Below, piece after piece: positions 1,726 through 4,697 of a stretch of DNA of 64,000 bases. Below the pieces are notes generated by a model, which saw nothing but the letters and a program-made list of their open reading frames with translations, did not search any database and had not been told where the DNA came from. Each line of letters begins with the position of its first letter. Within the stretch, counting starts at the first letter, position 1. The position numbers and the translations under genes were made by a program. This stretch comes from Herbiconiux sp. A18JL235 (GTDB taxonomy: Bacteria; Actinomycetota; Actinomycetes; Actinomycetales; Microbacteriaceae). The stretch covers positions 3,286,001 through 3,350,000 of the forward strand of contig NZ_CP162511.1 in assembly GCF_040939305.1 (NCBI RefSeq). The letters run 5' to 3'.

Positions 1726-2747
1726 CCGACTTCACCGGACAGGCCGGGTCGCTGTGGCGCCGGATGCTCTCCGGCAGCTGGGTGGGCATCACCGTCGCCA
1801 CGGTGCTGCTGTTCGCGCTCTCGCCCGTGATCGCACCGGGATCGCTCGCCCCGGCACCGCTTCTCAGCATGCTGCCCTTCGCATCCGTCTTGGCCATCGT
1901 GGCCGCGGGCCAGACCCTCGTGGTGCAGCAGCGCGGGCTCGACCTGTCGATCCCCGGCATGATCGCGCTCGCCGCCGTGCTCTCGACCGGGCTGCCGCAG
2001 AACTACGGGTGGCCGCTGTGGGCGGCGGTGATCGCGGGCATCGTCGGGCCGGGCATCGTCGGCATCGTGAACGGCGTGCTCGTCACGGTGTTCAAGGTGA
2101 TGCCGCTCGTCGTGACCCTCGGCATGAACGCGGTGCTCCTCGGCACGGTGTTCTTCATCGCCAACGGCACGCCCTCCGGCGCCCCCGCCGAGCTCAACGG
2201 CTTCGCGCTCGACCGCACGCTCGGCGTGCCGAACACGCTGCTCATCGCGATCGTCGTGGTGGTGCTGGCGGGGCTGGTGACCCAGAAGTCGATCATCGGG
2301 CGCCGCCTCACCGCGGTGGGCGTGAGCGAGCGGGCGGCCGCGGCGCTCGGCATCCGGGTGAACATGTACCAGATGTTCGCGTACGGCTTCGCCGGCCTCG
2401 CCTACGGCGCCGGCGGCGTGCTGCTCGCGGGGTACACGAAGACCCCGGCGCTCTTCCTCGGCGACTCGTACCTGCTGCCGACGGTCGCCGCCGTCGTGCT
2501 CGGCGGCACCGCCCTCACCGGCGGCATCGCGAGCGTCATCGCCACGGGCATCGCCGCCCTCTTCCTCACCCAGCTGGGGCAGCTCCTCCGCTCCCTCGGC
2601 TGGCAGGACGCACTGCAGCTCATCGCCCAGTCGGTCGTGCTCATCGCGGTCGTGCTCCTCCGCGAGCTGGTGCCCGTGCTCGTGCGGCGCTCCCGCGCAC
2701 GCCGCGAGCAGCGCCCGCTCGCCCCCGCGGGCGCGTCGGCCGGGTAA
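1722..2747 (+). CDS. Sugar ABC transporter permease, RbsC type
   Basis: 341 residues. This is an inner-membrane permease of the branched-chain/ribose superfamily with about nine to ten hydrophobic segments and the family motif GLDLSIPG near residue 70. GGTALTGG near residue 255 matches the conserved loop of RbsC, XylH and YtfT proteins. ATG at 1722 was chosen because GGGAGGA lies 5 bases upstream and the codon overlaps the stop of the fused ATPase-permease (ATGA). Two permease domains and one ATPase fit a complete importer core; the binding protein must lie left of the window. The Arg-rich C-terminus is cytoplasmic. Confidence 0.85.
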   Translation: MTDFTGQAGSLWRRMLSGSWVGITVATVLLFALSPVIAPGSLAPAPLLSMLPFASVLAIVAAGQTLVVQQRGLDLSIPGMIALAAVLSTGLPQNYGWPLWAAVIAGIVGPGIVGIVNGVLVTVFKVMPLVVTLGMNAVLLGTVFFIANGTPSGAPAELNGFALDRTLGVPNTLLIAIVVVVLAGLVTQKSIIGRRLTAVGVSERAAAALGIRVNMYQMFAYGFAGLAYGAGGVLLAGYTKTPALFLGDSYLLPTVAAVVLGGTALTGGIASVIATGIAALFLTQLGQLLRSLGWQDALQLIAQSVVLIAVVLLRELVPVLVRRSRARREQRPLAPAGASAG

Positions 2748-2804
2748 TCGCGTCGCGGATTCGGGGACGGATACGGCCCCGGCCACGTACGGATGAATTC
2801 CCGT

Positions 2805-2833
2805 TTGCGAGTTTTCTTCATGTCAGCTATCCT
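2805..2833 (+). promoter_or_regulatory. Candidate sigma-70 promoter of a small RNA
   Basis: TTGCGA (2805-2810) and TATCCT (2828-2833) are separated by exactly 17 bases, a good match to housekeeping promoter hexamers. Transcription would start near 2840. It would run through two hairpins and then into the HEPN gene at 2923. This short patch is visibly AT-richer than its surroundings. Confidence 0.6.
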
Positions 2834-2839
2834 GATGGA

Positions 2840-2905
2840 GCACGACGGCAGGCAGGATCTGCTCGTCACTCATCCGAGGGCCCCGCACAGCGCGGGGCCC
2901 TCGAA
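2840..2905 (+). ncRNA. Candidate AbiF-associated structured small RNA
   Basis: A predicted transcript of about 65 nt between the promoter at 2805-2833 and the HEPN/Abi_2 gene. Hairpin 1 pairs GACGGCAG (2844-2851) with CTGC-t-CGTC (2859-2867, one bulge) around a 7-nt loop. Hairpin 2 is a perfect 11-bp stem (2876-2886 with 2892-2902). GGAT in the first loop (2855-2858) can pair with ATCC in the linker (2872-2875), giving a possible pseudoknot. From memory, small structured RNAs upstream of abiF-like genes are a described motif class. Membership here is inferred from position and fold, not from an alignment. Confidence 0.5.
2876..2902 (+). terminator. Strong hairpin just upstream of the HEPN gene
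   Basis: A perfect inverted repeat GAGGGCCCCGC / GCGGGGCCCTC with the 5-nt loop ACAGC. It ends 20 bases before the ATG at 2923. No T-run follows, as is common for actinobacterial terminators. It could end the small RNA and also limit read-through into the HEPN gene, or simply be the 3' domain of the RNA. Confidence 0.6.
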
Positions 2906-2922
2906 GTGTTTCCAGGTCGAAC

Positions 2923-3696
2923 ATGCCACAACGTCTCATCTCGCAACTCCACCCGGCACGCCTCGCCTCGTACGCCGAGCACGGCCCGCCGGCCGTGACA
3001 ACGGCCGGGTCCGTCGCAGCCTTGTACGTGTGGCACGTGGCGCTCTGCTCTGCCTGGTACGAGACGTTGGCGTACACAGAAGCGCTGCTGAGAAACGTGG
3101 TCGACGCGCAACTCCGGCGCTGGAACGTCTGCCAGGAGGCTGGAGAGGACTGGCTCTCACATCCTGCGCCACCGCTCGCCGGTCTCGTCCGTCGGGCATC
3201 GGGTCAGTGCACATCACGCGCGCAGCAGGCAGCTCTCCGACGGCCGCCGACACACCCGCGCCATGCCGCTCCGGTCAGCTTGGACGACAAGGTCTCGCAG
3301 CTCGAGCTGGGGAGCATCAGCGCGCTCTTCCGGCTCGTTCCTCCGTCTGACCGCAAGCTGAAGAGCACAGGTCACACGGGACGGGAGAACCTGTGGTGCC
3401 ACGCTCTGGCGAAAGGCTTCCCCTCGCTCGACGAGCATCTCCTCGCCAGCTGGAACGGGTGGTTCCCGGCCCCCTTGCCTGCTGAGGTGCAAGGTGGATA
3501 TGCGATCGGTCACGCGGTCGAGCGGCTTCGGAGGCTACGCAACCGCATCAGCCACCACGAACCGATACTCGGCGTGAATCACCGCGAACGGTTGAAAGAT
3601 GTGTCGATGCTGGCGCGCTGCATCGACCTCGGCGTGGCGCATGATCTGCGGAACCTCGATCGGGTGCGTCGCACTCTCGCTCTTCGACCTCGCTGA
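2923..3696 (+). CDS. HEPN-domain Abi_2 (AbiF-like) protein
   Basis: 257 residues. The N-terminal part has the pattern of actinobacterial Abi-family proteins: a helix with ALYVWHVALCSAWYETL followed by EALLRN (about residues 33-62). The C-terminal part carries LRRLRNRISHHEP, whose R206-x4-H211 is the HEPN ribonuclease motif. Families like this act as RNA-cleaving toxins in abortive phage defence; here that role is inferred. ATG at 2923 has only a weak ribosome site, and a structured RNA with a strong hairpin lies directly upstream. The gene stands alone, has more mixed codons than its neighbours, and sits between unrelated metabolic genes, which suggests lateral transfer. Confidence 0.75.
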   Translation: MPQRLISQLHPARLASYAEHGPPAVTTAGSVAALYVWHVALCSAWYETLAYTEALLRNVVDAQLRRWNVCQEAGEDWLSHPAPPLAGLVRRASGQCTSRAQQAALRRPPTHPRHAAPVSLDDKVSQLELGSISALFRLVPPSDRKLKSTGHTGRENLWCHALAKGFPSLDEHLLASWNGWFPAPLPAEVQGGYAIGHAVERLRRLRNRISHHEPILGVNHRERLKDVSMLARCIDLGVAHDLRNLDRVRRTLALRPR

Positions 3697-3788
3697 GCGG
3701 CACTGCCGAAAGTGCTCGACGTCAAGCCCCCACCCGATCGGCAAGGCGGTCCGAACCGATGGCCGGGCGGGTACGAATGAGGGGTGAG

Positions 3789-3808
3789 GCGCCGCGACCG
3801 CGCGGCGC
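3789..3808. other. Hairpin touching a ribosome-binding site
   Basis: A perfect 8-bp inverted repeat GCGCCGCG / CGCGGCGC with loop ACCG. It ends one base before the AGGAG (3809-3813) of the hydrolase gene. It may terminate the HEPN transcript or structure the hydrolase leader. No T-run follows. Confidence 0.35.
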
Positions 3809-3821
3809 AGGAGAGGTTCTG

Positions 3822-4697
3822 ATGACCGACACCAACGCTCACTCCGACACCCCCGGCACCCCGGCCCCCGCCCCCGAATCGCACGGGCTGCTCGGTGACA
3901 CCGGGTTGCACGTCGACGACACCGGTGGCAGCGGCCGCCCGGTCGTGCTGATCCATGGCTGGCCGCTGTCGGGCGAGGCCTGGAAACTGCAGGTTCCGGC
4001 GTTCCGCGACGCCGGCTACCGCGTCGTCACCTACGACCGCCGCGGCTTCGGGCGCAGCGACAAGCCGCTGACGGGGTACGGGTACGACTCGCTCTCCGAC
4101 GACCTCGCCGCCGTTCTCGACGAGCTCGACCTGCGCGACGTCACCCTCGTCGGGTTCTCGATGGGTGGCGGCGAAGTCGCTCGCTACCTCCCCCGGCACG
4201 GCGCCGACCGCATCCGGAGCGTCGTCTTCGCCTCGGCGGTTCCGCCCTACCTGCTGCACCTGCCCGGCAACCCCGACGGACCGCTGAGCGCCGCCGAGGC
4301 CGCGAAGATGACGGCGGCGCTCACCGCGAACCAGGAGAAGTTCTACGACGACTTCACCACCACCTTCTTCTCGGTCGACGGCGAACTTGCCGTCACGGAG
4401 CAGCAGCGGCAGGAGGCGCTCGAGCTCACGAAGCAGGCCTACAAGCCCGCAGCACTCGAGGCGATGGCGGCGTTCGCGGGCACCGACTTCCGCGACGACC
4501 TAGCGGCGGTCACCGTGCCGGCTCTCGTCATCCACGGCGATTCGGATGCGACTGTACCGTTCGAGGGATCGGGCAAGCGCACCCACGAGGCGATCGCCGG
4601 TTCCGAGCTCTACGTCGTGGCGGGGGCGCCCCACGGCGTGAACGTGAGCCACGCCGCGGAGTGGAACCGAGCTGTGCTGGAGTTCCTGGCGAAGTAG
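3822..4697 (+). CDS. Alpha/beta hydrolase, non-haem chloroperoxidase-like
   Basis: 291 residues. The fold is recognised from HGWPLSG (oxyanion region), the nucleophile elbow GFSMGGGE with Ser113, the acid region HGDSDATVP and the final GAPHGV with the catalytic His. This pattern matches cofactor-free chloroperoxidases/perhydrolases and related esterases; the natural substrate cannot be told. ATG at 3822 follows AGGAG by 8 bases; the in-frame extension upstream to 3759 has no ribosome site. The first 30 residues are a Pro/Thr-rich tail with no signal peptide, so the enzyme is cytoplasmic. The aldo/keto reductase gene follows 32 bases downstream. Confidence 0.85.
   Translation: MTDTNAHSDTPGTPAPAPESHGLLGDTGLHVDDTGGSGRPVVLIHGWPLSGEAWKLQVPAFRDAGYRVVTYDRRGFGRSDKPLTGYGYDSLSDDLAAVLDELDLRDVTLVGFSMGGGEVARYLPRHGADRIRSVVFASAVPPYLLHLPGNPDGPLSAAEAAKMTAALTANQEKFYDDFTTTFFSVDGELAVTEQQRQEALELTKQAYKPAALEAMAAFAGTDFRDDLAAVTVPALVIHGDSDATVPFEGSGKRTHEAIAGSELYVVAGAPHGVNVSHAAEWNRAVLEFLAK

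Follow-up and report, generated by a model that had tools for sequence, protein, structure and literature searches.

The analysed stretch of 64,000 bp, here called the window (G000:C1:3286001-3350000), belongs to the 4.3-Mb genome of Herbiconiux sp. A18JL235, a member of the Microbacteriaceae that is congeneric with genome G093. On its forward strand, a promoter, a gene for a small RNA (sRNA) and a gene for a HEPN protein follow one another. The sRNA promoter (2805 to 2833) consists of TTGCGA (2805 to 2810) and TATCCT (2828 to 2833) separated by a 17-base spacer. The sRNA gene is about 64 nt long (2840 to 2903), its start near 2840 being predicted from the -10 box. According to folding it comprises hairpin 1 (2845 to 2866) with 8 bp, the loop CAGGA and one bulged base in the 3′ arm, which is also supported by covariation; a single-stranded tail of 8 bases (2867 to 2874), which has CACT here and TACT, TATT or TAAT after the hairpin in aligned relatives; and the terminator-like hairpin 2 (2875 to 2903) with 12 bp, which lacks a T run and is followed by T-rich stretches in some relatives. 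The HEPN gene (2923 to 3696), characterised by its open reading frame, profile matches and alignments as PD-T4-5-like and distantly Abi_2-like, codes for 257 amino acids, with the RNase motif R206-N207-x3-H211 encoded at 3538 to 3555.

A search of the genome showed that the HEPN gene is present in a single copy, flanked by an ABC transporter permease gene on one side and an alpha/beta-hydrolase gene on the other. The locus in genome G205 (L044) is syntenic, with 98% identity of the permease and 92% identity of the HEPN protein, and lacks the hydrolase gene (window 3705 to 4697) between the HEPN gene and an aldo/keto reductase gene. In the sibling species G093 (L146), the same permease gene is followed by a helix-turn-helix gene and a HipA-like gene, both named by eye, instead of the RNA-HEPN pair of the window, and for this reason toxin-antitoxin (TA) genes may have a hot spot beside the permease gene.

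The residues R206 and H211, which an initial annotation of this DNA had correctly assigned as the HEPN motif of a 257-residue protein, were invariant in all 30 rows of alignment A1 and all 24 rows of alignment A9, in agreement with the HEPN motif R-[N/H/D]-x3-H. Residue 207 is Asn in the window and Asp in the 92%-identical copy of G205, the latter being a permitted residue of the R-phi-x3-H motif according to the available text of PMC12373285. The same annotation had called the protein AbiF- or Abi_2-like, which proved right as to the HEPN type and too specific as to the family. The window protein had no notable match in Pfam, Abi_2 included, and its one match in PADLOC was PD-T4-5 (E 3.3e-7, 27.9 bits, best stretch residues 6-66; PADLOC matches are given by E-value and bits, the profile cut-off not being stated). 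The PD-T4-5 profile was matched by 24 of 24 relatives (best 1.4e-17). The window protein did not match the AbiD profile, NCBIfam contributed nothing useful, and a sequence search of solved structures returned nothing relevant (best E 1.1). Among the relatives, 8 of 24 matched Abi_2 (E up to 0.1, best 1.4e-7) and 7 of 24 matched HEPN_Swt1 (E up to 0.1); P0029, labelled PF07751, reached 21.9 bits against a cut-off of 25.6. An hhalign comparison with canonical actinobacterial Abi_2 proteins was weak (probability 14%, E 0.0019, 34 columns). Relatives of the window protein were found in 41 plasmid records, which we take to be from actinobacterial genera, and as two distant proteins in viral contigs; phage records gave no match.

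Canonical AbiF with its RNA, Rfam family RF03085, is a different gene from that of the window and occurs in 1 of the 16 genomes of the genus. In L075 (G250, same genus) a canonical abiF RNA (RF03085, 47.1 bits, 1501 to 1536) immediately precedes a canonical Abi_2 gene (PF07751, 121.6 bits). The Abi_2 protein of L075 had 406 homologues, and many of the 120 listed of these 406 were actinobacterial.

Taken alone, the promoter match is weak, with 8 of 12 consensus positions, and a promoter scan over 2600 to 4000 with a 9-of-12 cut returned no site. The initial annotation had given the coordinates and the 17-base spacing correctly, and what makes the sRNA promoter convincing is that the position of the -10 box recurs across relatives. 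A TANNNT box ends 10 to 13 nt ahead of the hairpin in 23 of 26 relatives, 20 of these at 11 or 12, in a set that contains the hairpins parsable by eye, a subset of the loci examined, and holds close kin (the window and L044; L047, L086 and L089 with one common hairpin sequence). Elsewhere up to 75 nt upstream, TANNNT occurred at 0 to 2 loci per 4-nt bin, the bins 8-11 and 12-15 excepted. By a looser count, the best box 8 to 20 nt upstream matched TATAAT at at least 4 positions in 18 of the 26 (10% in shuffled stretches).

The region 2838 to 2906 folds with -43.8 kcal/mol (z -7.1), and none of 200 shuffled sequences was equally stable. A terminator scan called no terminator, hairpin 2 included; the second hairpin is nevertheless best read as one. 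Covarying stems beside homologues, which had been proposed as a check of the RNA, were found in alignment A5 (MAFFT, structure-free, 23 hairpins), where all 7 counted pairs were changed on both sides and none of 500 shuffles reached the observed values; such counts can be inflated by kinship among the sequences, and the hairpins of distant groups were parsed by eye. The column structure fits A5 only partly (71.9% of cells paired) because the bulge shifts between groups. In the model-fitted alignment A8 (14 rows), 92.8% of the cells were paired and 12 of 19 pairs were changed on both sides, and in alignment A4 the values were 85.6% and 9 of 20. The number of further pair types was not unusual, as it was reached by 66 of 500 shuffles for A8 and 179 of 500 for A4. 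The terminator stem accounts for much of the signal; for hairpin 1 alone, 3 of 8 pairs were changed on both sides in A8 and likewise in A4. The bulged base in the 3′ arm of hairpin 1 is present in many members and absent, for example, in L076, L006 and L084. Single-stranded bulge bases of the RNA inhibit the RNase in the PbAbiF complex according to the available part of a review (PMC12737573), and by analogy the bulged base would be a candidate contact to the RNase.

The association of the RNA with the protein was analysed by covariance searches. A protein profile search of 398 genomes of the family gave matches in 34, six of which were strong (G000, G205, G093, G373, G210 and G019; E about 1e-59 or better), followed by a match with 2e-36. 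The covariance model R1, constructed from 12 sequences with the six family RNAs among them, yielded six strong matches in these 398 genomes (61.7 to 79.7 bits), directly upstream of the six closest homologues; the next match, with 28.2 bits, was background-like. In 394 genomes of the class, the window aside, no match exceeded 31.0 bits. Both large R1 scans were run with stricter filters and 12 candidates scored per genome, and weak matches were judged by score alone. L081, which was not part of the R1 training set, scored 46.2 bits beside its own HEPN gene.

As the training set of R1 includes the six family RNAs, we also used a hold-out model, R2, whose training set was seven RNAs from the genera Nocardia, Rhodococcus, Gordonia, Mycobacterium and Arthrobacter, four of them opposite-strand and none from the family of the window. 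R2 was run against 30 genomes hand-picked from those already seen (6 positives and 24 others), and the six best matches (40.8 to 59.2 bits) were the RNAs beside the close homologues, each being the top match in its genome. The seventh match (31.3 bits, G274) adjoins another HEPN gene, on the strand opposite to it, and the last four scored at most 27.0 bits. The window RNA (2840 to 2904) reached 74.2 bits with R1, as a training member, and 40.8 bits (E 3.4e-6) with R2, as a hold-out. The RNA gene is thus located beside the putative toxin gene and kept together with it, a feature of type III or RNA-antitoxin TA systems. The hold-out search, the covariation and the fixed position of the -10 box show that the earlier assignment of a predicted RNA of about 65 nt with two hairpins is more than chance and confirm it, and the model searches and the covariation bear out the view that this HEPN-type protein has a conserved structured RNA of its own.

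The identity of this RNA as an abiF RNA, which had also been suggested, was not supported. RF03085 (threshold 37 bits) gave no match in the whole window even at a low threshold, and none at the RNAs of relatives that were scanned. In a scan without L019, no RNA region reached an Rfam gathering score except the canonical abiF RNA of L075. Three sub-threshold Rfam matches were taken as chance: F6, the best such match in the window (23.6 versus 46 bits), which sits on the terminator stem, and BjrC68 in L053 (23.6 versus 39 bits) and sX12 in L054 (28.9 versus 106 bits), both aligned mainly on the terminator stem and conceivably related. In viral contigs the RNA pattern was matched exactly only once, on the strand opposite an open frame of 779 codons and in a contig where a search with the window protein found nothing, and this match was likewise taken as chance. 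The RNA family is absent from Rfam and is in this sense a new RNA family. Among the matches listed in the open-licence literature there was no description of it, or of an RNA partner for PD-T4-5; a study by Zilberzwige-Tal et al., which papers in this literature cite, may cover part of this.

In the close protein group, the RNA was present at all 13 loci that were fetched and assessable, L080 being left out as it lies at a record edge. At nine of them (the window, L044, L002, L003, L004, L008, L076, L079 and L081) it is on the strand of the gene, and at four, which form a Nocardia/Rhodococcus sister clade (L005, L006, L007 and L077), it is on the opposite strand. The opposite-strand RNAs keep the GACAGGATC core and the tail, with one base changed next to the core in L077; L078 is a plasmid copy with an RNA identical to that of L005. 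Among distant actinobacterial loci, L047, L048, L050, L083-L086, L088-L091, L093 and L009 showed by eye a comparable hairpin on the opposite strand, most of them with a -10 box and a terminator too, and L072, L073 and L092 have the hairpin on the strand of the gene. In a quick tree of 33 proteins, 29 of which carry an orientation label assigned by eye, at least two changes of orientation are needed, and 15 of the 17 labelled distant relatives have the RNA on the opposite strand.

These data bear on the possibility that the element is a leader or attenuator only, its hairpins halting transcription into the HEPN gene while the free RNA is irrelevant. In the window and eight close relatives, the predicted 5′ end of the RNA lies 82 to 87 nt before the start codon on the same strand, with a terminator-like hairpin at the end of the RNA, as a leader would require, and RCd22 of C. 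difficile is described in the available text of PMC12373285 as acting partly as a leader/attenuator too. In the sister clade and the 15 distant relatives, however, the RNA cannot be a leader, and in the sister clade it nevertheless keeps its sequence. The opposite-strand copies, which the initial annotation had not contained, speak against a leader-only role as far as sequence comparison can tell, and we consider such a role improbable. Because the sequence is kept after inversion, the RNA is, on these comparative grounds, a trans-acting RNA gene and not just a leader.

Beside the HEPN genes of L049, L071, L087 and L157 no RNA was recognised by eye; the sequence upstream in L157 is presumably a ColE1-type origin by its appearance. 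L155, L013, L017, L024 and L031 were left without an RNA call after viewing, and L010-L012, L014-L016, L018, L020, L022, L027, L028, L030, L032-L034, L037-L039, L041, L059, L060 and L063-L070 are outside the RNA tally. Two further kinds of hairpin were seen by eye beside the HEPN gene of distant relatives (L051, L053, L055 and L056, L057, L058, L061, L074), one on the opposite strand and one on the same strand with CCCCGG...CCGGGG, none of them at the Rfam gathering score. For P0011, P0014, P0015 and P0019, four of 29 proteins compared at the amino-acid level, the predicted frame extends back through the apparent RNA. In L008 (G093, H. moechotypicola) a shortened HEPN gene, read in another frame in its middle part, adjoins an intact RNA gene (75.3 bits). 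This pattern, one case only, is what would be expected if the toxin can be lost before the antidote.

Sequence does not distinguish an RNA antitoxin from an RNA guide. With a guide, the HEPN protein would find a target RNA in the manner of a Cas13-like single-RNA system, and HEPN RNases of the AbiD/F kind have been proposed as ancestors of Cas13 (PMC12165695 and PMC12737573, in their available parts). The RNA of about 64 nt, however, is mostly paired, has a loop and a tail conserved across the group and contains no variable spacer, which makes a guide function decidedly improbable. Antisense pairing of the RNA with the HEPN mRNA, which would block translation as in type I systems, is very unlikely: favourable pairing was seen at some single loci (z down to -2.4, reaching about -2 or lower in 3 of 13), but the mean z over 13 loci was -0.34 with mixed signs, and transcription of the opposite-strand RNAs leads away from the gene. 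That an unrelated sRNA lies next to the HEPN gene by chance is least likely of all, since under strict filters R1 found nothing above 28.2 bits in the 398 family genomes except the six and nothing above 31.0 bits in the 394 class genomes except the window.

The locus was compared with known systems. With the AbiF/AbiFr modules (RCd22-AbiFCd, PbAbiF) it shares a HEPN RNase motif R-x4-H and, immediately upstream, a structured sRNA that has a promoter and a terminator of its own; it differs in that the RF03085 motif is missing, the hairpin is another one, the protein is only remotely related, and the RNA occurs on either strand. The order of promoter, RNA, terminator and toxin in the window is that of type III TA systems of the ToxIN kind, whereas the window RNA shows by inspection no tandem repeats (one hairpin and the terminator) and its gene may be inverted in relatives; moreover, we take the window protein to have a HEPN and not a ToxN fold. 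Cas13 also combines a HEPN RNase motif with a short hairpin RNA, but the window protein has one HEPN motif in 257 amino acids and the RNA has no spacer; no CRISPR array was among the Rfam matches in the window. PD-T4-5 is likewise a single HEPN gene, its profile is matched by 24 of 24 family members, and the window family is often found on plasmids. The best-matching stretch of the window protein, however, spans only residues 6-66. The available text of PMC9519451 calls PD-T4-5 plasmid-borne and "a distant relative of AbiF/D" and mentions no RNA partner for it.

The conserved RNA, its structure, the promoter position, the company with one protein subfamily in either orientation and the invariance of the HEPN residues are results of the computations described here. 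In our view they are probably explained by a two-gene RNA-protein module in which a HEPN RNase is neutralised by an RNA of a new family, similar to AbiF and type III systems and with a flippable layout. That the RNA and HEPN genes stay together in relatives even when the RNA gene is flipped suggests a phage-defence pair in which the RNA is the antidote of the toxin. For C. difficile AbiF, the available text of PMC12373285 describes neutralisation in cis and in trans by its own RNA, which binds the toxin, and a loss of toxicity upon R202/H207 changes, and by this analogy the RNA-antitoxin reading, already put forward in the initial annotation, appears the best one. Since the RNA is unlike RF03085 and the protein has little in common with canonical Abi_2, this mechanism is borrowed from a distant relative. 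We infer binding, inhibition, RNase activity, a trigger and defence as follows. The sRNA with its promoter, bulged hairpin and terminator would be made constantly, bind the HEPN protein and silence its RNase site. Only little HEPN protein would be formed, in the window through transcription past the terminator and in the opposite-strand relatives from a promoter belonging to the HEPN gene. Loss of the RNA or an upset balance, for example by phage infection or plasmid loss, would free the HEPN dimer, which would then cut RNA and stop growth.

Relatives of PD-T4-5 in proteobacteria were examined because PD-T4-5, an E. coli plasmid gene, is a proven abortive-infection gene giving phage defence (Vassallo et al. 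2022, available text of PMC9519451). The set comprised 10 loci, nine from the plasmid search and L025. An opposite-strand structured RNA and, behind it, a GC-rich terminator with a T run were found upstream of the gene in L151 (Shewanella), L152 (Nitrosospira), L153 (E. coli; 226.7 bits against the PD-T4-5 profile), L154 (Edwardsiella), L156 (Klebsiella) and L025 (a Methylophilaceae contig), with L153, L154 and L156 counting as one because their RNA regions are near-identical. L151, L152, L153 and L025 have similar folds (z -2.6 to -5.2 with simple shuffles), with exchanged paired bases recognised by eye, and in L158 and L159 a promoter, an RNA and a terminator were likewise seen by eye. An opposite-strand RNA thus seems to be present in 8 of the 10 proteobacterial PD-T4-5-like loci, including L153 but not L157 of the two E. 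coli loci, as judged from these regions. The setting is plasmids and one chromosome contig, and no Rfam match was obtained at these RNAs. Another opposite-strand hairpin, roughly CCCCGCGACAGCC..GGCCCTCGCGGGG, was noticed by eye upstream of the gene in L019, L021, L023, L026, L029, L035, L036 and L040, i.e. seven alphaproteobacterial loci and one viral contig, L019 and L026 being near-identical.

Cas13 has been proposed to derive from HEPN toxins that are neutralised by RNA, and for such toxins the abiF motif has so far been the known RNA partner. The locus described here provides a second RNA family, without recognisable likeness to the abiF motif, which is kept with its HEPN gene though the RNA gene has been turned round. 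The flipped layout makes a trans-acting role testable, and the family offers RNA-protein pairs for specificity swaps. The finding also points to a possible overlooked RNA partner of PD-T4-5, a defence gene proven in laboratory E. coli. We give an even chance to the wider view that the whole PD-T4-5 branch, in actinobacteria and as far as E. coli plasmids, is made up of RNA-antitoxin modules, with a fast-changing, undescribed and mostly opposite-strand sRNA particular to each lineage. If this were true, a partner would be missing from PD-T4-5, which is known as a single-gene defence, and control of HEPN RNases by RNA would be a general rule that predates Cas13 and not a peculiarity of AbiF.
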